Source: Dendrophyllia cribrosa | Taxonomy: Eukaryota > Cnidaria > Anthozoa > Scleractinia > Dendrophylliidae | Reading direction: 5' to 3' | Assembly (NCBI GenBank): GCA_024195265.1 | Contig: JAJLRJ010000006.1 | Span: 25,562,770-25,626,769 of the forward strand | DNA: 64,000 nt | Shown here: positions 35,392 through 57,860 of the stretch, in pieces | Layout: each line of letters opens with the position of its first letter | How positions within the stretch are numbered: position 1 is the stretch's first letter | Position numbers and translations under genes: made by a program | The notes under the pieces: model-generated | What the model saw: the letters and a program-made list of their open reading frames with translations, nothing else | Told to the model about the DNA's origin: nothing | Databases searched by the model: none

Positions 35392-35492
35392 TTTTTAAAT
35401 TAAACGTAAGTAGTTGACGAACGAAAAAAAAGTACATCACTTTCATAATGTCCAGTTCGAAGAAAGAAAAAAAAGGAAAAAAGATAACATAA

Positions 35493-35562
35493 TGGAGACT
35501 CGAACTCGGGTCGTCCGGGGCTAAGCCACAAAATCAATCCACTGCGCTGTCGACGAACACAT
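35493..35562 (-). repeat. tRNA-derived SINE-like fragment
   Basis: On the minus strand, AGCGCAGTGGATTGATT resembles a tRNA A box/D arm. About 30 bp further on, CGAGTTCGAGTCTC resembles the B box/T arm. Anticodon and acceptor stems do not pair well, so it is a tRNA-like Pol III promoter remnant and not a tRNA gene. Confidence 0.4.
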
Positions 35563-35702
35563 ACTATTTGAGGACCAAATTTTAAACACGTAATTCGGTT
35601 GCAAAATCCTTTTGGAACGATTTTAATGTTGCACTAAAAACTCCAAATGCGAAACATCCGTAAGTTATTGTTATCTATATTCGTTTACGTCAAATTAATT
35701 AT

Positions 35703-36172
35703 TGTTATCGCCGGATTCACGTTGAATTCTTGTTACGAAACGTATTCGTATATTTTACAAAGCATTTACTCACTAAGTTTACAGCTGATGGAAGGAGCGA
35801 ATGAGTGAGTGAGAGAGTGAATTTTATTTAGTCTCCGTTACCGATAACCCGTTCATTATGCTTTCGCGTATACACGGGTTTAAAAGTAAGACTACACTAC
35901 ATTCAGTAGCTGACACTTAAGCTCGATCGCTGGCTGCTAAGCAAATGCTTAATGGCAAGTTTAATATATAAAACACAGAACTTGCCGGAGCAAAAATCCC
36001 ACAGGAATAAGCGGCGAACACAATATAAAACGGTCTTATCCATCCATGAACGCCTTGAATTGTCTTGAAAGTGTGCAATTGTACGCTGTAGTTCTCTACT
36101 TCTCAAGTCAACACACGGAGAGATTTTGCGGTATTTATTTCATGGCTGAAAGCCATATAGTCGTCAACATAA
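35703..36172 (+). repeat. 3'-end copy of the 20670-25133 repeat family
   Basis: Reverse-complement match to 20670-21115. It carries the gene's terminal codons (LLTKFTADGRSE, then TGA near 35800) and the family's 3' region, ending at the same boundary GTCGTCAACATAAAC. Everything upstream of the last exon portion is missing. Confidence 0.7.
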
Positions 36173-38047
36173 ACTTAAATATGCGTGCATAAATTTGCAT
36201 GCGCTAATGACACGAAAAAAAAGAGAAGAAAAGTCAAAGCCGGATTTACAACCCGTGTGCTCTGCCACGAGTAGTAAAAAGCGTAACTGGGTCGCTAAAC
36301 AAGCCGTGTGGTTGCGCGAACAAAGCTAATTTTGGCTTTCTTCTCAAAATTAAACGAAAGTTCTTTAGATTTCCAGTTATGTCGACACGGGTATATTCTG
36401 TATGGTCAGTGGAACTCAAATGTCAAAACTACCTCACATACCTAGCAGTGAAAGCTCTGAAATAAAGTATTTAAAATGTTTTTGGAACCATCATTTTCAC
36501 ATTTTCCTTCAGAAGAAGGCATTCTTATGTCGGATACGTACGTACAAAGGCGATTTTTAATTAAGCAAATAACTGATTCAAATCATGCCCTCAGGCTGTT
36601 TTAAAATGACCAGCATTGTTAAGGGTGTTCACATTTAACAAAAGACACAAAATTGTGATTGAACTGTTGATGCATGTCAAAGGTCTTAAATAAAGGTGTA
36701 AGATAAACATTCTCACTTTAACATTTCATCGAGGAAAGAAATAGTAAAATACCGTAACGACCCAGTAAACTCATAAAAAATGAAAGCGGAATTGGGTCGC
36801 TAAACAACCCGTGTGGTTGCGCGAACAAAGCTAATTTTTGCCTTCTTCTCAGAATTAAACGAAAGTTCTTTAGATTTCCAGTGACGTCGACACGGGTGTA
36901 TACTGCATGGTCAGAGTGCAACTCAAATATCAGAACTACCTCACATACCTAGCAGTGAAAGCTCTGAAATAAAGTATTTAAAATGTTTTTGGAGCCATCA
37001 TGACTTTTCACATTTTCTTTCAGATGAAGGCATTGTTATGTTGGATATGTAACGTACAATGGATATTTATAATTAAGCAAATAACTGATTCAAATAATTG
37101 CCCTCAGGTTGTTTCAAAATAAGCAGCATTGTTAAAGGTTTTCACATTCAACAAAAGACGCAAAATTGTGATGGGATTGTTAATGCATGTCAAGGGACTT
37201 TAATATAGGTGTAAGGTAAACATTCTCACCTTTAACTTTTATAAAAAAAAAAACGATAGTAATATACCATTACGACCCAGTAAACTTATAAAAAATGAAA
37301 GCGAGATTGGGTCGCTAAACAAGCCGTGTGGTTAGGCGAACAAAGCTAATTTTTGCTTTCTTCTCAGAATTAAACGAAAGTTCTTTAGATTTCCAGTGAC
37401 GTCGACACGGGTGTATACTGCATGGCCAGAGTGGAACTCAAATATCAGAACTACCTCACATACCTAGCAGTGGAAGCTCTGAAATAAAGTATTTAAAATG
37501 TTTTTGGAGCCATCATGACTTTTCACATTTTCTTTCAGATGAAGGCATTGTTATGTTGGATATATAACGTACAATGGAGATTTTTAATTAAGCAAATAAC
37601 TGATTCAAATAATTGCCCTCAGGTTGTTTAAAAATAAGCAGCATTGTTAAAGGTTTTCACATTCAACAAAAGACGCAAAATTGTGATGGGATTGTTGATG
37701 CATGTCAAAGGACTTTAATATAGGTGTAAGGTAAACATTCTCACCTTTAACTTTTATCAAAAAAAACCGATAGTAATATACCATTACGACCCAGTAAACT
37801 TATCCAAAAATGAAAGCGAGATTGGGTCGCTAAACAAGCCGTGTGGTTGCGCGAACGAAACTAATTTTTGCCTTCTTCTCAGAATTAAACGAAAGTTCTT
37901 TAGATTTTTTTTCCAGTGACGTCGACACGGGTGTATTCTGCATGGTCAGTGAAACTCAAATATTAGAGCTACCTCACATACCTAGCAGGGAAAGCACTGA
38001 AATAAAGTATTTAAAATGTTTTTGGAGCCATCATTGTCACATTTTCT

Positions 38048-38192
38048 GGTTCCTTCTGCATGTACTGGAGCACATATTACGTAAAACAAAAGGAACAAAG
38101 AACGACAATAATACAAATGCAAAACAAGACCAAAAATACAATACCACACAAACAATAGAAGACCATGGGTACCAGTACATGCAGAAAGACCC
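38048..38192. mobile_element. 145-bp MITE, 8-bp TSD CATTTTCT (hAT-type)
   Basis: Sister repeat units show the empty site CATTTTCTTTCAG. Here CATTTTCT is duplicated (38040-38047, 38193-38200) around an element with inverted ends containing CTTCTGCATGTACTGG. The 8-bp TSD fits hAT. No coding capacity. Confidence 0.85.
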
Positions 38193-38219
38193 CATTTTCT
38201 TTCAGATGAAGGCATTTTT

Positions 38220-38374
38220 GGCTCATCCTCGGTGTAAGAACCTGTAAAGCTCATGAGTGACGTAATACAAAGAAGACAAAAGGCACAAAACAAAATAGAG
38301 TCAACTGGGAATGCAATACTACAAAGGTAAAAAACAAAGGAAAAAGTCACAGGTTCTTACACCGAGGTAAACCC
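38220..38374. mobile_element. 155-bp MITE, 8-bp TSD GCATTTTT (hAT-type)
   Basis: The ends contain inverted CCTCGGTGTAAGAACCTGT. GCATTTTT flanks both sides (38212-38219, 38375-38382), and sister units have a single GCATTGTT at this place. A different family from its neighbour 28 bp away. Confidence 0.85.
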
Positions 38375-38690
38375 GCATTTTTATGTTGGATATGTAACGT
38401 ACAATGAAGATTTTTAATTAAACAAATAACTGATTCAAATAATTGCCCTCAGGTTGTTTTAAAATGACCAGCATTGTTAACGGTGTTTACATTTAACAAA
38501 AGACACAAAATTGTGATTGGACTAGCTGTTGCTCCATGTCAAAGGTCTTAAATATAGGTGCAAGATAAACATTCTCACTTTTTAACTTTCATCAAAGAAA
38601 AGCGATAGTAAAATGCCATAACTTATAAAAAATGAAAGCGGAATTGGGTCGCTAAACAAGCCGAGTGGTTGCGCGAACAAACCAAATTAT

Positions 38691-39780
38691 GAGAACAATG
38701 AAGTTTACTGAGGTTCTTATGTGGAGCATTACTTAAATAAAACAAGGACTGATTGTTAATATTTTTAATATCACAATAATGCTGCACACGTTGATTTCTG
38801 TTATCTACCTATTCGTTAAAGTAATGTATCATCTAGCAATGAAAATGTAGTGATGCATTGTATTTTTATAGGAAGAAGGATTGATTGTTAATATATATCG
38901 TCAACATCACAATAATTCTGCGCGTGTTGACTTCTGTTATTTACCTATTCGTTAATGTACGATTATGATACATTGCTTTTTGAAAAAAGAAACACAAGAA
39001 CTGATTGTTGATTTTTTATTGAAATTGTCAAATTAAATTAAATTGCGTTAAATCAACTTTCAAAGAATATATCGCTTCCTATTTCAAACCGTTGTACACA
39101 CATACAAGCTTTCTATTTTTGCATTTACCACACTCCGCATTTTCTACACTTCTCATTTTCCACACTCCGCATTTTCTACACTCCGCATTTTCTACCGCAC
39201 TCCGCACTCCGCGTTTTCAACCCAATTACAACCGACGCGCTCCTTGTCTACTTTAAGTCTTGTGTCGCTGTTGTTGTACCATTCGACAGCATTCCAGTTC
39301 TAGCGGATTAAGCTCTAATTTTTAGGTATTCCTTGATATTTAAAGGTTGTATTTCATTTTAACTGCTGTTTTTCTCCAGTTCCTTGTCGCAATAGACCCT
39401 GTCAGGATCTCCTTTCTGGCGGGTACCATGATCTACTCATGGAATGATGAGAATCCAGTCGATTTAAACAGATGCAGATTTCTTGGAAACCAAAATCGAT
39501 CGCTCTAGACTGGAATATGTGCACGATAAGGCATTATTTTAATTTGTTAGCGAACTGCACTTAATAAATATCGCTCAGACTGAAAACTACTCAGCAGCGG
39601 TCATTAACGACGGAAGCAACTTAAATTTACTTATCCAAAAAAGTCCGAAGTCACCCGCTCGAACTTTACGAGAATTATACGACTCTGTGAGGCTCGATAT
39701 TGTAAACTTTTCTTCGGTTTCACTTTCTATGGTGGAACAACTGCTCTTACAATTTCATGTTTCTGACGCGCTATTTTCTA
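38691..39780. other. left-arm-only segment of X with small repeats
   Basis: The X' arm has only about 120 bp here, so about 1 kb is private to this side. It includes two direct copies of a block of about 130 bp (38745-38850, 38880-38985; GATTGTTAATAT...CACAATAAT). It also has a CACTCCGCATTTTCTA minisatellite at 39125-39220. Confidence 0.6.
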
Positions 39781-40346
39781 GACTTCTACTCAGCTCAGAC
39801 AGCTTAGGCAACTCATGTAACTGAATTTGCTGTCTTTAAAAGTCCCAGACATTGCTTACCTTTGCAGAAATTCAAGAAGTTCAAGTCCAATTTGTCCAGT
39901 TTCTTTTCTTCAACGCGGAAAAGTAGCGATTTGCATTCAACAAGAATGGACAGTGCCCTGAAGTAAAGATGTATTCCTGAAAATAAACATGTGAATGAAC
40001 ATAAATATCACTGTTCATGCATGAAGTCAAACCAGAAAAAAACAAAACTCGCTAAAATGCCGTTTAGAAGCCATAAAGCCGACAAGAAACAACCGATATA
40101 CATTTTAATACAATCATGTATTTATAGAGGTATGAACACTTAAATGGCTGTTTGTTTATACTTTTGATATTTTTTTCAAACTCACGATAAAATTCAATAC
40201 AAATCCTTATATTTTTGTTGTTGAGGACTCCTATTGTTAGTCTTCGCTACCGGTGACTAATCAAGCCGTTTAGTTATGCGAACAAAACTAGTTTATGCTT
40301 TCATCAGTCCGAAAAATATGACAGTTTCTCGTTAAATCTTTTCCAG
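39781..40346. repeat. inner arm X of inverted repeat X/X'
   Basis: Matches 53731-54220 in reverse. The last 42 bases before the TTAA at 40347 (CAGTCCGAAAAATATGAC to CTTTTCCAG) are perfectly matched by the first 42 after the TTAA at 53727. X' includes the segment read at 54089-54376; neither arm encodes a recognised protein. Confidence 0.85.
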
Positions 40347-40632
40347 TTAAATGCTTTATCTACTTCTCTCGCCCCTATATACATTTGGTCCTCTTAATTG
40401 TACTCTAGAGTAAGGCCGTCGATGAAACAGGCGCAGATTTCTCGGAAACATAAAATGATTCGGCGCTTGTCTGGATGACTAATTATTAACAACAATTAAA
40501 CAACAACAAAAAGTCTTTATTTTTAAAATTTTGCTATCAGCACTCACTCATAGATAAACTTCGCTGCATTTTCATTTTCATCCTTTTTATCATCATTTTT
40601 ATTAAACAAATAAATTATATACAAAATTATAG

Positions 40633-40670
40633 GCACCCGCAGGTAGCATCAAGCTAATCGAGGCGGGTGC
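40633..40670 (-). ncRNA. LINE 3' UTR stem-loop
   Basis: Inverted GCACCCGC / GCGGGTGC with a 22-nt loop lies shortly before the LINE tail. Such hairpins are known in 3' UTRs of several LINE clades as RT recognition structures; that role here is inferred. Confidence 0.5.
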
Positions 40671-40842
40671 TTTTAGAAATAAATAGATAAATAAGAAATC
40701 ACATTACAAATAAAATACGGAGATAAATAAATTGGTACATAGATAAATAAAGAAACTAAGTCTTACAAGATTTTGAGTGAGACATTTAACAAGTCGGATA
40801 ATTATTTTCACACGTCAAAATAAAATGAAACAAAGGAGAATG

Positions 40843-41400
40843 TCAAGAAATCATGTCTATTATTGTGGGCACGTTAATATACGAATTAGCATTATCAAGT
40901 GTTTTGAGGAGTAATTTTCGTAGATTATTTTTGAAAGCATTTTTAGGGAGTGTTTTCAAGGTGTTCGGCAGCGCATTTCAGACTTTTGCGCCTACCCTCA
41001 AAAAGGACTTTCGTTGAATTTCCAATTTTGCACCTTTAATGTAAAAGTTCTTAGAAGCTGAAGCTCTGGTGTTATAAGAATGCACTTGGGAAACATTAGT
41101 AAACAGATTCGTGATATTCTTTGGCGCAAGCTTATTCGAGACTTCATACATTAATTTAGAAATTGTTTCAAAGTAGATAAAGCTCAGGGGCAGAGTATTA
41201 GCATCAATAAGTAATGGAATGGCATGTTCGTCCCTTCTCTGATTATATATTAGACGCAGAGCTCGCTTCTGCAAAATTAGAAATTTATTTAGATGTGATT
41301 TAGCTGCTTGGCCCCAGATTGAGACAGCGTAATAACGATAAGGAGAGATAAGAGCTTGATAAATATTAAGTAAAATCTGCCGCGGTACAAAATGTCTGAG
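40843..41400 (-). pseudogene. C-terminal part of CR1/Jockey-type LINE RT ORF
   Basis: Reads (minus) ALISPYRYYAVSIWG, LQKRALRLIYNQRRDEHAIP, then HSYNTRASASKNFYIKGAK and SFLRVGAKV, in the order typical of the region after RT in CR1-like LINEs. A TGA at about 40978 replaces the usual Trp codon after RVGAKV. The frame then continues as NALPNTLKTLPKNAFK to a stop at 40843. Apart from this single nonsense change it is intact to the truncation point. Confidence 0.8.
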
Positions 41401-41493
41401 CTATAAAAAGCTCTTACATACATTCCATTGCCTAAAAATATGCTTAGGCATCACAATTCCATTTGTATTTTGCTTACCTTCGCAGGACGTTAA

Positions 41494-41777
41494 GGCCGAT
41501 TTAGATGGCACAACTTTTGCCTACAACCATCGCATGCAACCTGCTCACGCCATACATACAACACGAATCGCGTGGTCTAAATCAGCCTACAACTCGCTTA
41601 CAACTGTTGCGTGCAACAAGAAAAAAGTTGTAGGATTTTGAAACATTATTTAAACACTACGACAATCGTAGCCAGATACGGTGTTATATAATGCGAGTTG
41701 TATACAATTTTCGCCTGACGCAAGCAGCGCGCGCTGCAAAAATCGCATGCAACAAAGTTGTGCCGTCTAAATCAGCC
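41494..41777. mobile_element. TTAA MITE W1 (284 bp)
   Basis: TTAA on both sides (41490-41493, 41778-41781). Terminal repeats GGC(C/T)GATTTAGA(T/C)GGCACAAC. Its inverted counterpart is W2 at the same place in the other arm of Y, so it was in the arm before the arms formed, or inserted before duplication. Confidence 0.85.
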
Positions 41778-42204
41778 TTAAACTTTTTTTCCGGTATTCA
41801 GTCTAAATTATTACATTCAGTGATTTTAAATCAAATCCTAGTATGGCCAAAGCACAGTGTGTTTTCATGAAACCAACATACTGTAGGAATAGACAGGCAA
41901 GGTCATTGAAATATACTGGACGAACAGTTGGCTTTGATCACCTTTGATCTCCGGAAAACAAAGGTTTAACAACGTTGCGCAGCACGCAACAAAAGTGATT
42001 AAAGGTTTTATAGCTCCTTTGACTTACATCAATACGGCCTTTGCAATTTGACAACGTACCAAAGATTAGGGAAAAATGGCCTTTGCCAATTTTGACATAT
42101 GTCAAAGGCGCGTTTGGCGATTTTTAATGCAGGAAACTTGCAGTTCTTACATTGTACCACAGGTTTCACAGATGTGCCAACGAAAGGTACAGTTTGCGTC
42201 GCGC

Positions 42205-42900
42205 GTCCTTCACAGAGGCTCGATATAAAGTTTCCTCCGAAGAGGCTCAATAAGTTTTCTCGGTCGCGTGAGTGCGCCTCGATCGATGCGGCTGTTAGGA
42301 TTCTCTATTGAAAACAAAATTCTAAGAGAGCTAATTAGAAAGTGTTCCATTCGACTAAGCTGGCACACGCTATGCAAATTTTGTTAAGCGAAAGCAGTAT
42401 ATTCAGAGAAATTCATGCTATTAAACAACTTACCAAATCAACCACGATTTGCTTCTTGAAGACTCGAAGAATTATTTTATACTCGGCATTTGTAAACTTG
42501 TACCTCTGGATAGAAAATTTTTCCGCGTCTAGAGTCTTCAAAAATGCCTCGAAGGGCTTCATCGATTCCGCGAACGGACTTAATTTTCTATCAATAGAGT
42601 TCATTTATCCCCCACAGAGGTTCGATAGGTTTCCTTCGAAGAGGCTCAATAAGTTTTCTCTCTCGTGTTAGTGCTCCTCGATGCGGCTGTTTTGATTCTC
42701 GTTGAAAACAGAGCTTAGAAAGCGTTCCATTTGACTAAGCAGGCACATGCAATGCAAACTTCGGTAAGCGAAAGTAGTATATTCAGAGAAATTCATGCTA
42801 TTAAACAACTTACCAAATCAACCACAATTTACTTCTTGAAGACTCGAAGAGTTATTTTATAATCGGAACTAGTAAATTTGTACCTCTGGATAATAATTTT
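42205..42900. repeat. subterminal tandem units of Y, left side
   Basis: Two units marked by GAAGAGGCTCAATAAGTTTTCT (about 42239 and 42638), CAACTTACCAAATCAACCAC and TTGTACCTCTGGATA. They are related to four units on the right side in inverse orientation. Confidence 0.75.
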
Positions 42901-43284
42901 CTAGATTTGTGATTGGTTCCCTCCGCTTTGGATCTGAGCCAATGTTCTTGTTTACCATGCTCATATTGGCTTACAAGAAGTATTAACCTACTCAACTTTG
43001 CTAGGCAACAGAAGGACAACAACTCGGCATTGCACCGCCCTAAAGCGATCCACGCACGACAAATTTATAAACCTCGCTTCGCGAGGAATAAAGCAAACTC
43101 TTCTAGTTTTTAAACCAAAACGGTTTTCAAAATTACGATGGCGTGTAGCGCACGCACAGTACAGCTCGATGTAAACAAACCGTGAAAACAATTCGTCATC
43201 ATTTTTCCATATTTGGTCAACTTAAGTATAATTGCTCAGATCCATAGCGGAGGGAACCAATCAGTAATCTAGAAAATTATTATC
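42901..43284. other. centre of foldback element Y
   Basis: Inverted GGTTCCCTCCGCTTTGGATC (near 42925) and GATCCATAGCGGAGGGAACC (near 43240) close the palindrome around about 290 bp of unique sequence. That sequence has no recognisable gene (short frames of 66-67 codons on each strand only). Confidence 0.65.
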
Positions 43285-44156
43285 CAGAGGTACAAATGTA
43301 CAAATTCTGAGTAAAAAATAATTCTTCGAGTCTTCAAGAAGTAAATCGTGGCTGATTTGGTAAGTTGTTTAATAGCGTGGATTTGTCTGAATATACTGCT
43401 TTCTCTTACCGAAGTTAGCATAGCATGTGCTTGCTTAGTCGAATGGAACGCTTTCTAAGCTCTTTAAAAATTCTGTTATCAACGAGAATCAAAACAGCCG
43501 CATGGAGGAGCACTCACGCGACCGAGAAAATTTATTAAGCCTCTTCGAAGGAAACCTATCGAACCTCTGTGGATGATAAATAAACTCTATTGAGAGAAAA
43601 TTAAGCCCGTTCGCGGGATCGACTGAAAGCCCTTCGAGGCATTTTTGAAGACTCTAGACGCGCAAAAATTAATATCCAGAGGTACAAATTTACTAGTTCC
43701 GAGTATAAAATAATTGTTGGAGTCTTCAAGAACTAAATCGTGGTTGATTTGGTAAGTTGCTTATTTAATAGCATGAATGTGTCTGAATATACTGCTTTCG
43801 CTTACCAAAGTTTGCATTGCATGTGCCAGCTTAGTCGAATGGAACGCTTTCTAAGCTCTTTTTCTGTTTTTAATGTGAATCAAAACAGCTGCATCGAGGC
43901 GCACTCACGCGACCGAGAAAACTTATTGAGCCTCTTCGAAGTTAACCTATCGAACCTCTGTGGAGGATAAATGAACCCTGTTGTGAGAAAATTAAGCCCG
44001 TTCGCGGGATCAATGAAGCCCTTCGAGACATTTTTGAAGACTCTAGACGCGCAAAAAATATTATCCAGAGGTACAAATTTACTAGTTCCGAGTATAAAAT
44101 AATTCTTGAAGTCTTCAAGAACTAAATCGTGGTTCAGTTTGGTAAGATGCTTAATT

Positions 44157-44690
44157 CAGTGGAACCTCGATTAAACGAAGTGCCAAGGGACTAGGGAAAT
44201 TGGTTCGTTATATCGAGGGTTCGTTATATCGAAAACCTCGTTGTAACGAATTTGCGGAAAAACAACCAAAATGTTCGTTATATCAAGGTATAGTTAATAA
44301 TTGTTCTGTAACGGTGTTACGTATATCCGGATCTGAACAAATAACATTTGCATGTTAATGCCTGCATAAAGCTTTAGTACTTTGTACATATAACTACGGG
44401 ACTGGAAAACTGTACAGGTTATACCTTTGCCCTATAGCACACACTGTTGGTCTGTTTCGCATTTATTCTTTTGTCACGAGTTGACTTTTATTCGTTATAT
44501 CGTGGTAAATTTTACGTTTGGGCTGCCGGACCGGATTGTGTTCGTTATAACGAGGATTTCGGTATATCGAGGTTCGTTGTATCTAGGTTCTGTTCCATAA
44601 ATTTTACTTGTTATTTTGCCGGGCTGAACGAAATCGTTCGTTATACCGAGGACTTCGTTATATAGAAGTTCGTAAATCGAGGTTCCACTG
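44157..44690. mobile_element. pogo/Tigger-like MITE (534 bp)
   Basis: Ends CAGTGGAACCTCGATTAAACGA and CGTAAATCGAGGTTCCACTG with TA following the right end. The interior repeats TCGTTATATCGAGG in both orientations. Non-coding. Confidence 0.7.
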
Positions 44691-44743
44691 TATCATGAAT
44701 TTGTCTGAATATACTGCTTTTGTTTACTGAAGTTTGCATAGCA

Positions 44744-44898
44744 TACCCCGTTTCGCAGAAACGGCAGCCATATTGATTTTTCCCCAAGTACACTCAATAA
44801 AGAACATTGAAAACAAAGGAATATATTAATTTAAATGTTCATCATGGGATGCCCTGGGGACAAAAATAATATTGCTGCCGTATCTGTGAAACGGGGTA
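44744..44898. mobile_element. 155-bp MITE, TIR ACCCCGTTTC
   Basis: TACCCCGTTTCGCAGAAACGG at the left pairs with CCGTATCTGTGAAACGGGGTA at the right. Sister units lack the segment (GCATAGCATGTGCC). TA termini suggest a TA-duplicating family. Confidence 0.65.
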
Positions 44899-45200
44899 TG
44901 TGCCAGCTTAGTCGTGTGGAACGCTTTATAAGCTCTTTTAAAAGTCTGTTTTCAATGAGAATCAAAACTGCCGCATCAAGGCGCACTCACACGACCGAGA
45001 AAATTTGAGTCTCTTCGAAGGAATTAACCTCTGTGGAGGATAAATCAACTCTATTGAAAGAAAATTAAGCCCGTTCGCGTGATCGATGAAGCCCTTCTAG
45101 GCATTTTCGAAGACTCTAGACTCGCAAAATTATTATCTAGAGGTGCAAATGTCGAGTCTTCAAGAAGTAAATTGTGGTTGATTTGGTAAGTTGCTTAATG

Positions 45201-45246
45201 CAGTGGAACCTCGATTAAACGAAGTGCCAAGGGACTAGGGAAATTG
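45201..45246. mobile_element. solo left end of the pogo-like MITE
   Basis: 46 bp identical to the start of 44157-44690, inserted at the equivalent position of the next unit. The rest of the element is missing. Either the insertion was amplified with the unit and then deleted, or the deletion came with duplication. Confidence 0.6.
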
Positions 45247-45826
45247 AATTTCTTTGAATATACTGCTTTCGCGTACCGAAGTTTGCATAGCATGTGCCAG
45301 CTTAGTCGAATGGAACGCTTTCTAATTAGCTCTCTTAGAATTTTGTTTTCAATGAGAATCCAAACAGCCGCATCGAGGCGTACTCACGCGACCGAGAAAA
45401 CTTATTGAGCCTCTTCCGAGGAAACTCATCGAGCCTCTGTGAAAACTGTGGAACGATGTAAGAACTGCAAGCTTTCTGCACGAAAAATCGCCTTTACCAC
45501 GCGCCTTTGACATATGTCAAAAGTGCCAAAGGCCGTTTTAGTTGCCAAATCTTTGGTACGTTGTCAAAGTTGGCAAAGGCCGTCTTTGATTTAAGTCACA
45601 GGTGCTATAAAACCTTCAATCACATTTAATGCCTGTGTTCACGCTACGTTGTTACCCCTTTGATGGAGATCAAAGGTGATCAAAGCCAACCATTCGTCCA
45701 GTATATTTCAATGTTGCTGACTGAAAACACACATGAAACTGAGCACACTGTGCTTTGGCCACACTCGCTTTTGATTTGAAATCACTAAATGCAATAATTT
45801 AGACTGAATACCGGAAAAAAGTTTAA

Positions 45827-46111
45827 GGCTGATTTAGACGGCACAACTTTGTTGCATGCGATTTTTTGTAGCGCGCGCTGCTTGCGTCAAGCGAAAATTG
45901 TATACAACTCGCATCATATAACACCGTATCTGGCTACGATTGTCGTAGTTTTTAAATAATGTTTCAAAATCCTACAACGTTTTTCTTCTTACATGCAACA
46001 GTTGTAAGCGAGTTGTAGGCTGATTTAGACGACGCGATTCGTGTTGTATGTATGGCGTGAGCAGGTTGCATGCGATAGTTGTAGGCAAATGTTGTGCCGT
46101 CTAAATCAGCC
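45827..46111. mobile_element. TTAA MITE W2 (285 bp)
   Basis: Inverse counterpart of W1, TTAA at 45823-45826 and 46112-46115. Its right TTAA is shared with element V. Confidence 0.85.
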
Positions 46112-46115
46112 TTAA

Positions 46116-46518
46116 AGTGCGCCTAAACCCCAAATGTTTTTCTTTTAATCAACTCAATGTACGTTGAAAAGTCAAATAATGAAATATTTCGTGTTTTTAA
46201 CGTCGCGTTAGTGAGTTATAGAGATTTGAATTTACAAAATGCTAATTAGATGACGTCAAATCAAACAATAATGAGTAAAAGAATCCCAACGTTTTCCCAA
46301 ACCGACGTTTCAGCTCATCGAGCATTCGTAAACACAACGGTCGTAATGGCGGACTTGGTTTACTTCCATTTACTCCATGTATGCTATTACCGAAGTGTAA
46401 CATATCACCGACAATTTAATATAAATTTAATATAAAGTTTACTATGAGCGAGTGACTTTTCTCCAGTAACCGCAGTAAGTCGTAATTTACGACTTAACAA
46501 TTGGGGTTTAGGTGCACT
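46116..46518. mobile_element. TTAA MITE V (403 bp)
   Basis: Ends AGTGCGCCTAAACCCCAA / TTGGGGTTTAGGTGCACT. TTAA at 46112-46115 (shared with W2) and 46519-46522 (shared with U). Absent from the left arm of Y. A short palindrome GTCGTAATTTACGAC lies near its right end. Confidence 0.85.
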
Positions 46519-46522
46519 TTAA

Positions 46523-46978
46523 GTAACAATGCGTGTAAGAAGTAGGCATTGCTCTATTGTTCCGCGGCATTTCGCTTTCCCCACATAACATCGTTTAGTT
46601 TTTTTTTTTTTACTGAGAATGCATCAACCTATGGACAACATGTTTTTTTTAAATAAAATGTACTGGAACTTTATTTTAAAGTGATGTTTCTTTTCTGCTA
46701 CAAGATTTCATCCAATCGTGAAACTCCAAAACAATGGCCAAGAAAAGCTTCTAATTTTACATGTTTCCCACAGAATTTTGGTTGCATTAAAACTCAGAAT
46801 AGTTTTTACTAAAAGGGAATCAATTAGTAAACTAGAGAGAAATTAATGCACTACCTGATTAAGTTATGGTAGGTTTTCACGTTTCAGCCAGTGAGGTGGA
46901 CGGTTTCAACAATATCACAATTAACACCTTTCTGCATTCCCTGCCGTTAGGTTGCCTACTTCTTACTGGGGCCATTAC
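46523..46978. mobile_element. TTAA MITE U (456 bp)
   Basis: Ends GTAACAATGCGTGTAAGAAG and (inverted) TTCTTACTGGGGCCATTAC share GTAA and GTAAGAAGTAGGCA. TTAA at 46519-46522 (shared with V) and 46979-46982. Absent from the left arm of Y. Confidence 0.8.
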
Positions 46979-48053
46979 TTAACGTCCTGCGAAGGTGAGC
47001 AAGATACAAATGGAATTGTAATGCCTTAGCATATTTTGTATGTAAGAGCTTTTTATAGCGACGAAGTTTATCTACGAGTGAGTGCTGATAGCTTTCGAGC
47101 AAAATTTTAATAATTAGTCATCCAGACAAGCGCCGAATCATTTTATGTTCCCTGGAAATCTGCGTTTGTTTCATCGACGGCCTTACTCTAGAGTACATAA
47201 GAGGGCCAAATGTATATAGAGGGGCGAGAGAAGTAGATAAAGCATTTAAGAGCGTGTCCGCGTAAGAACCGACCACTCAAATTTGGGTGCAAAATAGATT
47301 TCCTTCATTTTTTTCTGCACAAGACAAGCAACATATGCAATGAATAAAAATGGTCTTTTTTTGGGCTAATTCGCCTTTTTTATTTTTTTTTTAGGTATTT
47401 TTTTTTTTGATAGACAGCCGAAAACCGCACAAAAAGGAAAATCGAAACCCAAGATTTTCGTGTTACTCGAGCGTTGCTTAAAAATAGGTCCGCAATGCGT
47501 ACATGAGTGAGCTTACGATGAAAATTTGCACGGAAATATCTAGAGACGGAATTTGTGATGTCGAAAATGTTACTGTCAAAGTAATTAAGCTAAATGAGAA
47601 ATACACCATAGGCTGTCTGCCTCTGATTTTTCATAAAAACTATTTAACGATATAATGTGGTACTGTCAGAGGTATGGAAGCACAACTTAAAAAATGGTTC
47701 ATTGACTGTATAACTGGTGCAAGTGTTCCAAGTCCAAGAGATGTGATAAAAACACATGTCCACCAAGCACCATTGTGGCTTGCAACTTAACGTCTCAAGA
47801 GCTTCTGTATTGGAAAAGTATCTTGGTTTGTCGAGGATGATTTTTTGTTTTGTTGGACTGGAAGATCGTTCGTTAATTTGGTATCGTTTTTGTCACGCTA
47901 TGTAATGTCACTACAAGGACCGAGTTATCATCATTGTCATCATCAAAGTTATCGTATTAGGGTTTCACATGTAAGGAGTGGTAAAACCCCATACTGACAG
48001 TAAAGATTGACACCATTTTACTCAAGGCAGGCAATGTTAACTTTTACCATTTC

Positions 48054-48275
48054 TTTCAGTGTTACGTGACCCTTCGTATCAAAACTACTTTGAGCAGTTC
48101 GATTTACCCTGCCGTCAATCATACCTTATATGGAAAAAGTTCGTTTCTTCGGACGCCATTGCAGGCTGGTGATCACGCAGGAGTATACAAACTCCTCCTA
48201 CTAGGTATGATGGACGGCAGAGTAAATTGAAATTGCTCAAAGTAGTTTTGATTCGAAGGGTGCGTAACACTGAAA
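48054..48275. mobile_element. MITE, TIR TTTCAGTGTTACG
   Basis: TTTCAGTGTTACG and CCCTTCGTATCAAAACTACT at the left match AGTAGTTTTGATTCGAAGGG and CGTAACACTGAAA at the right. No clear TSD. Confidence 0.65.
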
Positions 48276-48312
48276 TCAGTGGTAATCAAAATATATAAAT
48301 TTAATGATCAAT

Positions 48313-48402
48313 TTAATAAAACTTTTACGCTTGTAGCTATTGTTTCAGAGGTCTGAAACAATAACTACACTTGTAAATTACAGCTGTAAAAGTTTTATGA
48401 AA
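48313..48402. repeat. imperfect hairpin
   Basis: TAAAACTTTTACGCTTGTAG with CTATTGTTTCAGA is followed by TCTGAAACAATAACTAC and CTGTAAAAGTTTTATG. A likely foldback remnant. Confidence 0.6.
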
Positions 48403-48625
48403 TTGAGCCCTGGTTGGTGCTTATAGCATGTAGCTGTTTGCATACAGTATCAGCATTGCCAAAAATAACAGTAAAACATTAACATTTATTCTCAAGTTTT
48501 TTTGGAATGTAGACTAGCTGTAACAAGTATAGTTAACTTACATTTTAAACTTAGTAACATCAACGTTTTCAAACAATAACTTTTCAACGTTTTAGTGTAA
48601 CTGCACTTAACTGACTTAACCCAGA

Positions 48626-48730
48626 TTTGTGTCTCTAAAGACATTATTTGTTCTCCGAAGAGAATTCATCGTTTCCCGATGGAAATATGTTGTTCCCAGA
48701 AGGGAATTATATGACCCTGAGACAGGGTTA
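48626..48730 (+). repeat. five 21-bp units, each a mini-hairpin
   Basis: Units 48626, 48647, 48668, 48689 and 48710 each hold an inverted core such as GTTCTCCGAAGAGAAT, GTTTCCCGATGGAAAT and GTTCCCAGAAGGGAAT. The period is a multiple of three. Hence 7-residue repeats appear on both strands (FVLRREF / IVSRWKY / VVPRREL on plus) within a 96-codon plus frame (48629-48919) and a 114-codon minus frame. Whether either is translated is unknown. Confidence 0.7.
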
Positions 48731-50430
48731 TGGATTGCCAGATGTTGTACATGGAGCAATTCGCAATGCTGGACTGCACAAGTCACTCGGCGGCCATCAC
48801 AGCTGTCTTTAAAACTACATCTCGGTGATTTAGGGAACCTTTTGTTGGCGAAGATTTTGTCTACACCTTCAAAACATCTGAAAAACTCTTTACGTGAAAA
48901 CAATAGACACATTGCTTGAATGCTGTGCCTGATTACTGGTGCAATATAACACGAAAACATCGTAAATTTCGAGTCTCTTACCTCTCTTTCTCCAACGGCG
49001 AAAAAACATGGTTGCTTCCACGTTCCGTGTTTTTGATATCGAAAATACGTCGTTTGTTATCCGGGATGATCCGGGATCAGTTCGCAGCACTTCGTGTTCA
49101 ACCTCGCTCATATTCGCGTGTTCGTGCTCTCATCGTTCGTACGGAAATAAACAATATCTGTTCGAGACCACGCGCCGTGATACCGAAGACAACCCGAAGA
49201 TTGGACTACCACGGACTTACGGACACTTCCCATGACATAGAGTGAGATTACACTTCATGTAAGCTCACTCAAAAATCGCACATTCAATGAAACAATCTAA
49301 AACTTGCAGGATTACTAGCTAATTTTTTCTTATTTTAGTATGTTTCAAAATTGCTTCTCTACTTTTAAAACAAGCAGAGTTAAAAAATTTCCCCGCATCC
49401 TTTAAAACACGCCGCCATCGTTTATGCTAATATAGCCTTCAGTAATATAAACTGTTTTTTTTTTCTGGAAAGTGAGACTTAAGCTGTAATGCTACCTATT
49501 ACTAACCTTTAGTACTAAGATCAATCTACACGTATCAAAAATAAAAGTTGTGGGCACTCGTTATTTTGAAGTGCAAAAAAATCGAAAAAGTTGTTACAAA
49601 TTCAACGTTTCGTGTAGAAATCAAGAAATTGACTGTTTAACTGAACTGCTTTTTAAATCCCATTCATTAAATTATTTTATTATTGGAATTCTAATAAAGT
49701 AAATTGCAAAGCTTCGACCAAAACATCGCGAAATCTTTGTTACTTGCATTGCCAAGAAGCCATTCTCCTCCGATAAAGCCGTTACCACTCCTGTCACGCA
49801 TCACGCATTCTTGGCTTCTGATAGTGCACTAATAAAACATGGACACAGAGTCCAAAACAGTCGGTAAGTCCAACTTTAACCCACCCCCCACCCCGTTTTA
49901 CAAATTATTTATAATTGATACATTGATACACTTTTTATCTTTCCAATTTTTAATGAATCAGCTCAAGCAAGAGTCAAAGATTCGCTACCCGCCGTGAGTC
50001 CAATGACACGTTCGTTTTATGCTAATCTAGCTTTCAGAAAAGTTTTTTTTTTATCTGAAAAGTACGACTTCAGCTGGAATGATACTTTTTACCAACCTTA
50101 GTAGAAAGACTAGTCCGCAAGTTTCACAAATAAAAACTGTGGGCACTCATAAGTTTCAAGCGAAAAACATATCGAAAAAGTTGTTAAAAATGTAACATTT
50201 CATGTTCAGTGAAATTTAGAAATTAGCTTTGTCTGAACGGTTGCTTTTTACTTTTCATGAACGAGTTGATCAGACCACCGTAACTAAAATGAAGTATATT
50301 TTAAAGCTTTAAAGTTGAGAAATCTGAATTTTTAACCACCAGTGAGAAATATTTCGCACTTTAATCTGAGCCATTATTTACACAAGTTGTCACACATCAC
50401 GCATTGTTCGCCGAAGATCCCACAAACTAC

Positions 50431-51728
50431 TTTTTTTTTTAAATTAATAACATCTTTATTGACCAAAAAAAAAACATTTTACATTTCAAGTTACATTTAG
50501 TTACATTAAGCTGCTGTATTAAAGAAAAAAAGTACATGTAGTAGAGATGATACTGTCACAATATACTGGTAATAATAATAACAACAATAATTAGGTGACA
50601 ATTGTTTCAATTTGAAAGGTTAAGTTAAAAGGAAACGTATCCAGATCAGATTAGGCTGCTTTATTGATTTTCCATGTTACTTTTAGTTTAGAGATGCATT
50701 CGTCTAGGTCGAGTTTTCTTTTCAAGAACTTACTAGCGTAGATATAATGTTTCACGTGCTGCAGGAGAAGAGAGATTTTTCTATTTAAACGAAGACCTGA
50801 CTCTGGTGGTAGATGGTAAACGTTTAACATTATTCGGTTCCAAAGTAGGGTCGATATTGATGTTATGCTTCATGTTAAACCAATTTAAAATTCCATCATA
50901 TAACTTTCGAGTTGAGCTACATTCCAAGAAGGTATGTTCTATAGAGTCTGACTCATGACATTCAAAACAGCTATCATCATTTGCAATTCCATAGCGTTTT
51001 AGTTCTTTATTGGTAACCAGAATTCGGTGCAATAGTTTTAAAGAGAATTGTCTAAGCTTATTATCTGAAGTTGTTTTGTATATAGTATTCATGCTCTTTT
51101 CCCAGTTCTTCGCTATTTCGTCATTAGTCTTCGTCCAACTTTTAACTGCAGTTGGCGAATCAGTGTTGTTTTCTTCAAGTAATAATCGATAGTAGTCTTT
51201 GCAACGCATTTTCGAAAAAAATATAGATTTATCTTTTGAGAGCTGAAAAGCGTCATCCTCCTGTTCTGATATTCGTAAGGAGATGCGAGATTCCGAAGCC
51301 TTGTTCTTTAACCATCTTGGTATAGCTGAAATAATTTGTTGATACCTCAAGAAGTTTGTATTTACCTTATACTTGTTATTAAGTGCAGCTAAAGTAAGAA
51401 AATTCCCATTGCTGTCTAGAATATCTTGAATATAGTGAATGTTTCTATCAGACCAGGTTTTCCAGGAAAAAGATTTTCCTTCAATGGTTATATCCTTGTT
51501 GTTCCATATTATAAACGTTTTTCCGTAGGTATCTTCAAATTTATTTCGCAGATCACCGAAATAATTTAGCAGTATTTATATACTTAGTACCCTATTTATA
51601 ACCGTTTTGAAATCAAATGCTTTTATCTTTAATTTCATTTTCTAAAAAAAATGATTTCAAAAAAGCATCGTTCTATTAAATAACGGTCAATAACGCCGCT
51701 AGTCTATTTATCCGGACCATGTGCTTCT
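50431..51728 (-). mobile_element. 5'-truncated LINE in loop of Z
   Basis: The 3' poly(A) is the T run at 50431-50440. CAAACTAC flanks at 50423-50430 and 51729-51736 are a candidate 8-bp duplication. The coding region resembles the LINE at 8359-9571 but is clearly diverged. Confidence 0.65.
50651..51574 (-). pseudogene. LINE ORF2 C-terminal region, frameshifted
   Basis: From about 51574 the frame reads ILLNYFGDLRNKF, DILDSNGNFLTL and NTNFLRYQQIISAIP, aligning with the 9.5-kb LINE (LLYFLELRTLYN, DLMDKDGKLLSF, KTNFLSYLQVLSAIP). It has the same C-x2-C-x7-H-x4-C pattern (SCFECHESDSIEHTFLEC). A frameshift near 50830 moves the true C-terminus to another frame (ISLLLQHVKHYIYASKF) ending at 50651. 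An in-frame TAA lies at the upstream limit. Non-functional copy. Confidence 0.8.
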
Positions 51729-51739
51729 CAAACTACCGA

Positions 51740-52834
51740 GACACGTAGCTATCGTTTGAACTTCATATCGTATTTACTCTGGCGTCACTTCCGATAGCAG
51801 AGCGAAACAGCTAGATTTCGAAAAGTCACGAGAAACATCTTGCAACTACTTATCACTAAAAAAAAAAAACATTTGCATTGCCGCACAAAACAAGATAGCC
51901 GCTGCAGCAAATCTTCTTTCTATCTTTTGCGTTGAACTTGATATTACTTACGTGATCCCACTGCTGCGTTTTGACCAAACGGATTGTGGATTTCTCTTGC
52001 CAAGTACTTAAGCTCACGACGTGCTTTCCCGCAACGCTTGCAGATTTTCTTGTATGGCCAGGATACTGACACGACTTTGGTGGTCGCCAAAACCTTCCCA
52101 AGGAATGCCTATGTTTTGGACAAACTGACATTTTTTCAACTTGTATTTCACTCAGTGAGAAAAGACCAGCTCTCGCCAAAATTAGATATTTCTCGGTCAA
52201 ACTTTCTTTTGACAGGTGGTAACTGGCAAGGTGCGTGATAACACCATCATTGCAGTCCTTGAGACGAAATATGTCCTCAATACCTCAACTTGCTCCACAA
52301 TCACTTTTTTACTTTACTGTTCAGGGAACACAATTTCGAAGACATTTTGATTTGCGTGTTCAACTTTTTCTCTAGCAAATTAATGCGACGGGAAGCTTGC
52401 AAAAACACACAAACATTTCACCTTTGCTTCTCGCAGTTTGTTTTTGTTTTCTTCATAATTATTTGTAAACGAGATGTTGATCATTTTAAAATTAAATTGT
52501 TATAACACTGCTAAAAAGATGAACATATCTAGTATATCCAAATCATTAGAGCAAAGAAGACTTACTGAATTGTGTAAACAATGGGAAACCAAACGTTAAT
52601 GTTTTTTCGATAATTTTATTTCTAAAGTTTTGATAAAGTTACCGCCAAATGGATCACGTCTAAACCTAGCACTAACAAATTATGAAAGGTTAAGTATAAA
52701 ATTAAATTTGCTATCCTTTGGAGTAATTTGCAAATCTATCGTACGGAAAAACACACAGTTAATTTTAAGCAGATGTTGACATTAACCCGGTAACGAACGA
52801 ATCTTTGACTCTTGTTTAAAAATTTATTGAAAAT
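51740..52834. other. loop region of Z, no recognised gene
   Basis: A 114-codon minus frame (51856-52200) contains a CxxxxxxC/H-rich stretch (SVCPKHRHSLGRFW) but I do not recognise it. Confidence 0.4.
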
Positions 52835-53730
52835 TGAAAAGATTAACCCAGTGTATCTAATTTAAAATAAATTTAAAACGGGGCGAGAAGAGAGTTAAAG
52901 TTAGAGGTCAGCTCCGTGCTTTTTGACCGTTTGAGACTCTGTACATATTAAATCCACTATCAGAGGCCAAGAATGCGTGATGCGTGACGACAGTGATACG
53001 GACGGCTGCATGCATGTGGCGGAGATTTCGCGATATTTTGGTACGAAATCAAGACTGATCAAAGTCGACTTCGCAATTCGCTTTGCAATTTACTTTATTA
53101 GAGTTCCAATGATCAAATAAATTAATCAATGGAATTTAAAAAGCACTTCAGTTAAACAGTCAATTTCTTGATTTCTATACGAAATGTTGAATTTGTAACA
53201 ACTTTTTCTATTTTTTTTTTTGCACTTCAAAATAACGAGTGCCCACAACTTTTATTTTTGATATATGTAGATTGATCTTAGTACTAAAGGTTAGTGATAG
53301 GTAGCATTCCAGCTTAAGTCTCACTTTCCAGAAAGCTATATTAGCGTAAACGATGGCGGCGTGTTTTAAAGGATGCGGGAAATTTTTTTAAATCTGCTTG
53401 TTTTAAAAGTAGAGAAATAATTTTAAAATATACTAAAAGAAGAAAGAATTAGCTAGTACCCTGCAAGTTTTAGATTGTTTCATTGAATGTGCGATTTTTA
53501 AGCAACGCTCTAGTAACACCATAATCTTGGGTTTCACAATTTTCCTTTTTGTGCGGTTTTTGGCTGTCTATCAAAAAAATTACCTAAAAAAAAAATAAAA
53601 AAGCGAATTGGCCCAAATAAAGACCATTTTTATTCATTGTATATGTTGCTTGTCTTGTGCAGAAAAAATGAAGGAAATCTATTTTGCATCCAAATTTGAG
53701 TGGTCGGTTCTTACGCGGACACGCTCTTAA

Positions 53731-54803
53731 CTGGAAAAGATTTAACGAGAAACTGTCATATTTTTCGGACTGAAGAAAGCATAAACTAGTTTTGTTTGCA
53801 CAACTAAACTGCTTGTTTAGCCACATGGAGCGAACAGTCTGAACGGGAGTCCTCAACGACAAAAATATAAGGATTTTTTATGGGATTTTATCGTGAGTTT
53901 GAAAAAATATCAACATAAACAAAAAGCCATTTATGTGTTCATATATCATTACATACATGTTTTAAAATGTCTATCTGTTGTTTCTTGGCGGCTTTATGGC
54001 TTCTAAACGGCATTTTAGCGGGTTTTGTTTTTTTCTGGTTGGACGTCATGTATGAACAGTGATATTGATGTTAATTCAACGTTTATTTTCAGGAATACAT
54101 CTTTTCTTCGATCAGGGCACTGTCCATTGTTGTTGAATGCAAATCGCTACTTTTTCTGGACTTGGACTTCTTGAATTTCTGCAAAGGTAGGCAATGTCTC
54201 GGACTTTTAAAGACGGCAAATTCAGACAAGGAAGGCGCCTGTAGCAATGCCTCAGCACGGAGTGTTAGCATTGTTATGAAACACATAATTGGAAAAGCAT
54301 CCAAAGAACTTTTTTTTATTCTGCGAAGGAAGCAATAATTTGCTTTGTTCGCGCAACCACATGGCTTGTTTAGCAACCTAATCCCGCTTTCATTTTTTAT
54401 GTATTTATTGGGTCGTAAAGGTATATTACTATCGCTTTTCTTCGATGAAAGGTTAAAGTGAGAATGTTTATCTTACACCAATATTTACGTCCTTTGACAT
54501 GCATCAACAATTCAATCACAATTTTGTGTCTTTTGTTAATTGTGAACACCCTTAACAATGCTGGTCATTTTAAAACAGCCTGCGGGCAATGATTTTAATC
54601 AGTGATTTGCTTAATTAAACATCTCCATTGCACGTTACATATCCAACATAAAAATGCCTTCATCTGAAGGAAAATGTGAAAATAATGGCTCCAAAACCAT
54701 TTTAAATACTTTATTTCAATGCTTTCTCTGCTAGGTATGCGAGGTAGTTTTAATATTTGAGATCCACTAACCATGCAAAATACACCCGTGTCGACGTCAC
54801 TGC
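53731..54803. repeat. arm X' of inverted repeat X/X'
   Basis: Starts CTGGAAAAGATTTAACGAG after the TTAA and mirrors 39781-40346, then one unit of the 515-bp array. It ends within a unit at GTCGACGTCACTG. The short TTCGCGCAACCAC and GCTTGTTTAGC motifs match the left array inverted. Confidence 0.85.
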
Positions 54804-54866
54804 ATGCTCTCTTTTAACCTTTAGACGTAGTACATGCAAACTCATACCCCCACCACCCAACCGTCT

Positions 54867-55325
54867 ATGATCCAACCGACTCAAATGACCCAACTGCCTC
54901 AAATGATCCAACCGACTCAATTGACCCAACTGCCTCAAATGATCCAATTAACTGATTCAAATGACCCAACTGACTCAAATGATCCAACTGACTCAAATGA
55001 TCCAACGGACTCAAATGACCCAACCAAATGAAATGACCCAACTGCCTGAAATGACTTAACTGCCTTAAGTGACCCAACCAACTCAAAAGACCCAACTGAC
55101 TAAAATGCCCAAAGTGCTTCAAATGACCCAATGGACTCAAATGACCCAACTGCCTCAAATAATCTAACTGACTCAAATAACCCAATGGCCTCAAATGACT
55201 CAACCGAATCAAATGGGCCAATTGACTCAAATGGCTTAACAGTCTCAAATGACCCAACTGCCTCGAGTGATCAAACTGACTCAAATGCCCAAAAGGCTTC
55301 AAATGACCCAACTGACTCAAATGAC
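54867..55325. repeat. 18-bp minisatellite, about 25 units
   Basis: The unit consensus is close to CAAATGACCCAACTGACT. The period is near 18 bp with occasional 15-17 bp units. It encodes six-residue repeats on both strands (DSNDPT plus; LGHLSQ minus), producing open frames of 65-151 codons. It begins about 60 bp beyond the end of X'. Confidence 0.9.
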
Positions 55326-56949
55326 CCGATAAATTGATGCCCTAATATATGGTTATGTGTAATTTGCAGTACACAAAACAGTATACACGGTTACTGTAAA
55401 AATTTCTCTTGAGTTACTTTTTAGAGTAAATAACTTTGGTAGCCTAATAGAATAATTCTTGTAAATTTGAAGGTTTAGAATGCTTGGTACAATGTGATAA
55501 TGCCCTAACGCTTAATGTATTGTTAATTATGAGTAATATTATAAGTGGTTGCAACCCCCCCCCCCCCCCCCCCCTATCTATTAGATGTACAATATTTCGA
55601 AAATATTTTACATCTGATAGATAGCCTGTGGTGTGCTCTTCAAGATAAGGTAAATATTATGGGTTGTAGCGCTGCTGTGGGACCGTGAAGTCAAAGAAAA
55701 TGACCGACAATATGGCCGCCATCTTGGATTTTACTAAACATTATTTTTTATTGGGAAAATGCGGAAATTGCAAATATATTTTGCTACAGTTACCAAAAAA
55801 GATACAATTAAACATTTTGCTGCTTTTGGTAGCATTTTATATGTGTTTTCACCAAAAAAGGTGAAAAACACGCATTTTTATTAACAAATGGCTTGACCTC
55901 ATGATACTTATGACATTATATCTTGTTACCATAGCAACCGGTTGTCGCAAACGTTTCCAGAATGTGTCAAAAGGACAAACGAACAGCTACTGAAGATGGC
56001 ATGTGCCAAAAATAAATGCTCTTGACAAAATCCGAAAAAAACCGTTAAGGAGGGTTGGCATCCACCCCACCCCCCACCCGTACGTTAAATGATCATGCAG
56101 TTAGCAGCTGACCTTAAGGGACTCTTCATATTTAATTTGAGTTTAAATCTAGCGCCTTTTCTTTGGTAAAGTAATCAAAGATACAAGTCCATAAACGCAA
56201 AAAGACTTCGTAAATGCCGGTTTTTCTTTTTCTCAAACACACTTTTCCGATTTGAATCGAAACACGCAATCCGTTAATAAACAACACAGCTGGAAATATC
56301 ATATTTACACACGGGTTAATGCCACAAGACCTAAATCACGCAAAGACCTTTCCAAGTGTTCTACAGACCAAACTTTGCAAACGTTCGTTCCTTTGTCTAG
56401 AATTGAGGAAAAATAGGCCGAAAAAAGATCAAACAAGAAGATGATAAAGTTCGCGCGTTAAAGCCGCGTGGGCTATGAAAATTATAGCCTGTGTAGCAAG
56501 GCGCATGAAAATAATATGGGCGCAAGAAAGAACAGGGTGCGCGACGGAGACACGTGAGGAGAGAAGAAGCGCCTGCCCGAGATGCCCACGAAAATCGTTT
56601 CCCGCCCCCTATCCAATTACTTGGCAGCGCTACGTGATCTGTCAAAACATTTGACAGAAAACAGATCCTTTCGCGCGAAAGCGCAAATTGTGGGAAACTC
56701 TGCGAAATGTCAGTCGAGAGCGGCGGTGAATTACGATATTAATTGAAACATGGAAGAAAACGAGACGATGAAAATCTGTCGTCTGTGCAAAAAAATTGAC
56801 GAATAGTTTATGGGCCGTACGTTACAAAGGTCTGGATTAATGTCTTACATGAATCTATTCAGACGTCTGCGCAGGTTATGATTGTGGCCGAATAATAGCT
56901 CGAAGTCTTCATCAGATCGGGATTTCTGTTGAGAAAATCGGCGACGAAG
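55326..56949. other. no recognised gene; C18 tract at about 55555-55574
   Basis: Contains a poly-C run and the motif TTACCATAGCAACCGGTTG near 55926, similar in style to 5108-6335. A possible Gypsy 5' LTR could lie in 56100-56940 but no second LTR exists in the window to prove it. Confidence 0.4.
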
Positions 56950-57860
56950 ATGGCAGAAATCACATCCATACCTCCCTTTGATCCCTTCGAACAGGCCGGT
57001 AGCGTCGGTCCGCGATGAACCAGGTGATAAACCAGACTACCATATTACATCGATGCACGAGGAATTACGGTCGACAATCGAAAACGAGCTTTGCTACTTC
57101 ACCTCGCCAAGCCAGCAGTCCAGGACATCTTTGCTACGCTCTCGGACAGTGGTACGTCGTACACGGAAGCTATCACCTCGCTGGAGACGTATTTCTCCCC
57201 TCAAAAGAATTTACAGTTCGAACGACATTCGCTCCGTCAGGCACATCAAGGGCCAAGTGAACCGATCGACCAGTAGTCACTCGTCTGCGCCGTCTTGGCA
57301 AAAATTGTGAATTCGATATGAAGTCATCAGGGATCAGTTAATTAAACATTGTTCGTCCGCCATACTCCGTAGACGCACGAGGAATTAAGAAATCGGAATT
57401 ACGGAATCGGAATTACGGAATAGGCCAATTTTCAAGCGGCAAACATTGAAAACACCTCGTCCCAGGACCACTGTACTACGAACACTCTCGCCAGCTTACA
57501 ACGCCGACAGATCTGGAAGAAGATGAGCGAGTGAATTTTATCTCTGACAGGCGACGACAATGCACACATTGTGGAAACCAGGCGAAAAACAAGCCAAGAA
57601 ACCCCAGGTCTCCTGCCTTTCGTAAGACCTGTTTTCAGTGTTGAATTCAACACCATTTTGGCCGTGTTTGTATGAAGAGAACCCCAACCTTGGGTCGTCC
57701 ACAACTGCAGCAGGCTGAGAACCCGAAGGTCCAGTACGCATGTCATTCTCCTGTCGATGAAAATTGTTATGCATTTCAACTCAACCCTAGGCAAGTAAAG
57801 GCAGACACCACAGTCCGCCATAGGTACCCCTGTCCAAATCTGTATTGATTTAGGTGCAAC
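56950..57860 (+). pseudogene. Ty3/Gypsy gag and protease remnants
   Basis: Gag begins at ATG 56950 (MAEITSIPPFDPFEQ). It continues in shifted frames as RKRALLLHLAKPAVQDIF, SYTEAITSLETYFSP and FERHSLRQA, the typical gag order of metazoan Gypsy elements. A degraded nucleocapsid region follows near 57550. Near 57830-57880 a retroviral-type aspartic protease motif reads ICIDLGATANNIDYATYE, with Leu in place of the Thr/Ser of D-T/S-G, so it looks inactive. Several stops and frame changes. Confidence 0.75.

Follow-up and report, generated by a model that had tools for sequence, protein, structure and literature searches.

Large palindromic segmental duplications consist of near-identical arms that carry genes, and foldback transposons such as Galileo and Tetris possess long inverted arms with internal tandem repeats. 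Elements of the Kolobok superfamily are described as targeting TTAA and ending in 5'-RR...YY-3' (PMC9587614, PMC6004289). The coral piggyBac-type elements and CMITEs share the TTAA target and carry a CC[C/T]T end motif according to PMC2872659, and the same source gives CMITE-IN as a coral precedent of an element inserted at TTAA between repeats. The SaTar modular transposon arrays of plants are outlined in PMC5907723 as elements lying end to end with none interrupting another. These systems are compared here with a locus of the stony coral Dendrophyllia cribrosa, studied in a window of 64,000 nucleotides (25,562,770-25,626,769 of contig 19, C19, in a genome of 627 Mb and 22 contigs), where TTAA copies at 40347, 47246 and 53727 separate four sequences in the order X, Y, Z and X'. 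Coordinates are window positions, negative values and values above 64000 denoting flanking DNA beyond the window. An earlier note had read Y and Z as two large foldback elements stacked in one TTAA at the exact centre of a third inverted repeat, formed by X and X'. The analysis assigns a probability of about 0.92 to a different reading, in which the locus is an inverted duplication that is large, old and imperfect and only one transposon, Z, has inserted at this spot.

Self-comparison of the window, with 20 kb of flanking DNA added on the left and 40 kb on the right, revealed that inverted homology extends past X. The best chain comprises 18 collinear blocks with 7,554 aligned columns at 84.9% identity, spanning 18721-42900 in the left arm against 44054-66470 in the right arm, which runs past the window end. 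X and X' are inverted copies of each other (40350-39821 against 53727-54225; 535 columns, 84%); inverted pairs were also found between 26.1-30.1 kb and 59.9-64.0 kb, termed the K regions, and the gene segment at 18.7-20.6 kb pairs with 64.4-66.5 kb. The innermost pair joins 42206-42957 with 43967-43214, placing the centre inside Y at about 42958-43213 and not at the TTAA. All three TTAA copies that had been pointed out are present, and so are the matching inverted ends of Y (40347-47249; 145 columns, 93%) and Z (47246-53730; 245 columns, 93%). The palindrome of at least 42 perfect bases per side attributed to X and X' has 43 beyond the TTAA, the first mismatch falling at column 48 from the TTAA. 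Chance is excluded for the inverted matches of Y, Z and X/X', all found at E 1e-10 or better.

The arms contain host sequence, as befits an inverted segmental duplication, with a gene in both. The left arm holds a galactose-3-O-sulfotransferase-like open reading frame (ORF), and the counterpart in the right arm is found beyond the window's end, at 65199-66377 (tblastn: 86% over 393 aligned columns, query residues 10-390, stop-free), so that the frame is open in both arms over the aligned part. Among the best 120 matches of this ORF, the top named ones came from the stony corals Oculina and Stylophora, and later Desmophyllum, with the sea anemone Actinostola between. A third copy to the right, U3, comprises half of Y, the TTAA, X and K, about 90-97% identical to the corresponding left-arm pieces. 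Gene-bearing arms, a short spacer and a local cluster are shared with palindromic segmental duplications, whereas the present locus is more diverged and patchier.

Whether Y is an element or part of the arm is decided by other copies of its junction with X. A genome search with X, in which 40 of 378 candidates were scored, returned 45 matches, and 15 loci were taken for alignment. The left-arm Y-TTAA-X reference aligned unbroken over the TTAA at five of these, namely the window itself (L047) and L046, L048, L050 and L052, the latter four with 97%, 82%, 76% and 74% identity, respectively. Beyond the right end of the window, at a distance of 24 kb, a second X-TTAA-Y junction had been located that is 97% identical to the window's own. 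As for the remaining X loci, L045 corresponds to the right arm of the window, in which Z intervenes; at L049 the match sets in only just inside X; and eight of the 15 match an internal piece of X alone, apparently a dispersed repeat. The search with the Y end scored all 14 candidates and gave 14 matches, 11 on C19 at 24.41-25.65 Mb, two on C18 and one on C20. X adjoins Y in six of them, including the window's left arm, all on C19 at 25.12-25.65 Mb. The Y and X matches overlap by exactly four bases in five of the six; at the adjoining copy at 25.261 Mb the X match starts from its 7th base and contiguity was seen in direct alignment, and the copy at 25.4826 Mb was assessed from coordinates only. 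Two further Y-end copies have Z between Y and X (the window's right arm) and a gap of about 2 kb, respectively. Among the eight Y-end matches so compared, no copy of Y independent of X came to light at a different site, contrary to the expectation for a mobile TTAA element. As judged from these alignments, X, Y and X' jointly make up the inner portion of a single inverted duplication and are not separate entities. Long inverted arms with tandem repeats are features that X-Y shares with foldback transposons, but the TTAA marks no element boundary in X-Y, whose arms extend into host DNA.

The proposal that two TTAA elements share one site holds for Z and fails for Y, which is continuous with X; in the trio of X, Y and Z, only Z behaves, by its sequence, as a TTAA transposon. 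Fifteen loci (the window's left Z end and 14 others) were aligned among 40 listed matches of the Z ends, and TTAA abuts 14 of them and TTAT one, with flanks that differ and are unrelated. The genome search suggested in the earlier note returned varied flanks at TTAA for Z and, for Y, an adjoining X in six of 14 matches. Among the matches listed, Z ends were found over many contigs, and 13 plus/minus end pairs, the window's own included, are spaced 2,017-6,485 bp. When Z is left out, the right end of Y and X', joined at a single TTAA, align with the left arm straight through the junction; therefore the TTAA at 40347 is the unoccupied mirror of Z's site. Sites without Z and contiguous over the TTAA are the left arm and the four loci named above. 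Z, 6.5 kb long, is accordingly an insertion of an ordinary kind, cleanly nested at a TTAA in one arm of an inverted segmental duplication.

The termini of Z, GAGCGTG...CACGCTC, fit the 5'-RR and YY-3' pattern of Kolobok; membership of that superfamily is putative, and a Pfam scan found no DNA transposase domain in 100 of the 101 window ORFs of at least 80 aa. The TTAA target is shared with the coral piggyBac-type elements and CMITEs as well, but Z starts with GAGC and lacks their CC[C/T]T end motif, which is found, as CCCT, at the ends of a neighbouring element, Q. End-pattern searches of viral contigs and of genome contigs gave 0 matches in each, as did an Rfam search at gathering thresholds. 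No description of this locus or of Z was found in the titles and abstracts of the open-licence papers searched.

Several observations weigh against the inverted-duplication reading. The arms diverge unevenly, with Kimura two-parameter (K2P) distances of 0.044 at the ends of Y, 0.049 just inside, 0.194 deeper in Y and 0.109-0.145 in X, and a single clean duplication without later conversion therefore does not fit. Stretches of several kb are unpaired (20.6-26.1 and 30.1-36.3 kb on the left, 54.8-59.9 kb on the right). The 43 perfect bases beside the TTAA contrast with the 199 positions compared after the first mismatch, of which 32 are mismatched (Fisher p ~0.001), an excess conservation that fits the expectation for transposon ends and is unexplained by plain duplication. 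At C19:24459642-24461620 (L049), about 2 kb separates Y from X, and there is no TTAA at that X boundary. The comparison of adjoining X covers eight of the 14 Y-end matches, the remainder being three on C19 (24.407, 24.426 and 25.463 Mb), two on C18 (14.286 and 14.328 Mb) and one on C20 (26.866 Mb), and all of it draws on the sequence of one assembly. The stacked-element reading is not restored by these points, since other copies show directly, in their sequence, that X-TTAA-Y is contiguous. For comparison, K2P was 0.084-0.139 in nine pieces of the K regions, 0.109-0.145 for the terminal piece and units of X against X', and 0.044 for the ends of Z. The equal value of 0.044 for the ends of Y and Z had been taken as the date of two insertions; this was dropped, as Y is not an insertion and the arms range over 0.044-0.194.

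Other explanations were weighed. The TTAA between X and Y may be a preferred landing site, hit repeatedly in the cluster of inverted duplicates, with Z in one copy and about 2 kb of other DNA between Y and X in another (C19:24.459-24.462 Mb, with no TTAA visible at the X boundary); this is unlikely, and if true, the 43 perfect bases could reflect constraint or activity there. An assembly artefact, with collapsed or chimeric haplotypes joined at repeats, is very unlikely: inverted repeats of tens of kb within a cluster of similar copies are indeed difficult to assemble, but the overall difference between the aligned arms is about 15% with gaps counted, Z, a LINE (long interspersed nuclear element)-like piece and an 867 bp insertion are each restricted to one arm, and the contig is 48.6 Mb long. 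Serial insertion of Y and then Z, as TTAA foldback elements, at the TTAA in the middle of a pre-existing X-X' palindrome could account for the three exact TTAA copies, for the inverted ends of Y and Z that abut them and for the excess conservation next to the TTAA, and small TTAA-bounded sequences do sit end to end inside the right arm of Y. This history is nevertheless most improbable, given that Y-TTAA-X is contiguous at four loci besides the window's left arm, that 11 of the few (14) Y-end matches fall within 1.2 Mb of C19 while those of the Z ends are scattered over many contigs, and that inverted homology passes through Y to its centre. The likeness to SaTar arrays concerns the first-suspected stack only, since the stack here is a single insertion. 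The alternative that TTAA elements abut in a chain, X and X' being the ends of two tail-to-tail copies of a large element E, finds some agreement in the excess conservation of the 43 bases and in a motif of about 100 bp found at the ends of X, of X' and of the 510 bp units inside, and can scarcely be credited when no outer ends of E were found in the window, the paired arms include a host gene, and TTAA-proximal X at seven loci (same 40 of 378 candidates) runs on into Y at five, meets Z at one (the right arm) and other DNA without TTAA at one (L049). Thus the interpretation in the earlier note stands for its transposon part, Z, and not for the stack of Y and Z. A low chance probability computed for the shared TTAA junctions, counting Y, X and a neighbouring sequence W separately, is void, as neither Y and X nor W and its neighbour V are separate TTAA elements.

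Table. Features of the locus, in window positions, with the basis of each assignment
Feature	Position	Strand	Basis
Left arm (gene, K region, X, left half of Y; broken by unpaired stretches)	18721..42957		inverted blocks
Spacer at duplication centre, ~256 bp	42958..43213		innermost inverted pair
Right arm (right half of Y, Z insertion, X', K region)	43214..64000, on to ~66470 outside window		inverted blocks
Galactose-3-O-sulfotransferase-like ORF, 390 aa, left arm	18816..19988	-	Pfam PF06990 2.6e-71
Left-arm K region, partner of 59875-63989	26123..30103		inverted pairs, K2P
Right-arm K region	59875..63989		inverted pairs, K2P
X, left-arm segment, ~4.5 tandem units of ~510 bp	36278..40350	+	inverted pairs, motif
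TTAA joining X and Y, left arm; unoccupied mirror of Z's site	40347..40350		contiguity at L046, L047, L048, L050, L052; joined-flank alignment
Y, two inner arm halves + duplication centre, apparently no separate element	40347..47249		locus alignments
LINE-like insertion, left arm	40570..41399	-	ORF without Pfam match
Z	47246..53730		inverted ends, dispersed copies, empty site
Left inverted end of Z	47246..47485	+	self-comparison
Right inverted end of Z	53494..53730	-	self-comparison
X', right-arm counterpart of X, one 510 bp unit	53727..54802	-	inverted pairs
Q, 9.3 kb, piggyBac-like, inserted at TTAA in left arm of V-W repeat	-2936..6376		ends CCCTATCCAGACCGGG, CCCT motif
W	6373..12544		shared TTAAs, locus alignments

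An apparent second stack nearby resolves like the first, as one insertion in a long inverted repeat. V (12541-16656) and V' (-5938 to -2933) are inverted copies with Q and W between, sharing TTAAs, and V'-TTAA-Q-TTAA-W-TTAA-V was considered as a second example of stacked architecture. This fell once V was seen to precede the W end, on its upstream side, in 28 of the 30 loci aligned (from 40 matches listed); V and W therefore form one repeat, and Q is the single insertion. V was seen over at least 261 of the 300 bases compared at 12 of these loci and over only 28-72 columns, mostly next to W, at 16; V is missing at two loci, L035 and the window's own left end, the latter with Q in between. Because the same architecture seemed to recur here, three mechanisms had been considered, namely fusion of excision ends via self-complementary TTAA overhangs, copying by foldback over long inverted ends, and sister-chromatid transposition, and all fell with the resolution of Q as a single insertion.

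On a smaller scale, the right arm of Y contains at 45823-46982 an insertion of 867 bp and, immediately next to it, a repeat of 293 bp, both bounded by TTAA, with an empty counterpart at 41487-41781. The insertion, missing from the left arm and from U3, is divided at an internal TTAA into 46112-46522, with clear inverted ends, and 46519-46982, whose inverted ends are weak (score 12, matched by 2 of 20 random sequences); it may be a real two-element stack. The LINE-like insertion of the left arm is likewise missing from U3, and its ORF, recognised by eye, is presumably the C-terminal part of a reverse transcriptase.

Repeats are frequent along the arms. Inside X, four whole copies and one partial copy of the motif of about 100 bp were counted, and the tandem units of about 510 bp occupy 36278-38690 on the left (about 4.5 units) and 54291-54802 on the right (one unit). 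An 18 bp minisatellite of about 25 copies (54867-55327) adjoins X', and subterminal sequence of Y is weakly similar to X at 39455-39514 (13.5 bits, E 0.003). In the left K region, at about 27924-28608, an internal direct repeat lies between a pair of inverted ends (about 30 bp, recognised by eye), and this stretch has no partner in the right K region. Besides the sulfotransferase, Pfam gave retroelement domains, GIY-YIG and three weak matches among the window ORFs. The GIY-YIG match (22.1 bits against a curated cut-off of 22.6) belongs to a 423 aa ORF within 14072-15786, which we take to be Penelope-like and which overlaps two 392 bp inverted repeats, mutually 100% identical. A broken multi-ORF coding region lies at 21033-25145 and 35710-36174, with no Pfam match for five of its ORFs, and a 481-column piece near it (20673-21118) is found again, inverted, beside X.

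In the proposed history, a chromosome segment with a galactose-3-O-sulfotransferase-like gene would have been duplicated in inverted orientation, probably by local rearrangement in the cluster of duplicates on C19, leaving two arms that face each other across the spacer. The ancestral arm would already have contained X-TTAA-Y. Z, presumably moving by cut-and-paste with a borrowed transposase, would then have entered the right-arm TTAA and duplicated it, giving Y-TTAA-Z-TTAA-X', and the left arm would have retained the empty site; from inside, such an arrangement would pass for two elements placed centrally in a third palindrome. What looks like an element stack in a palindrome can thus be produced by a nested insertion in a single arm of a long inverted repeat, and TTAA at mirror positions of both arms resembles a target duplication, from which only other genome copies can tell it apart. 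In conclusion, the locus illustrates inverted duplication of a gene-bearing segment in a coral genome, and Z represents a family of TTAA transposons that vary in length, with an empty site that is exact.
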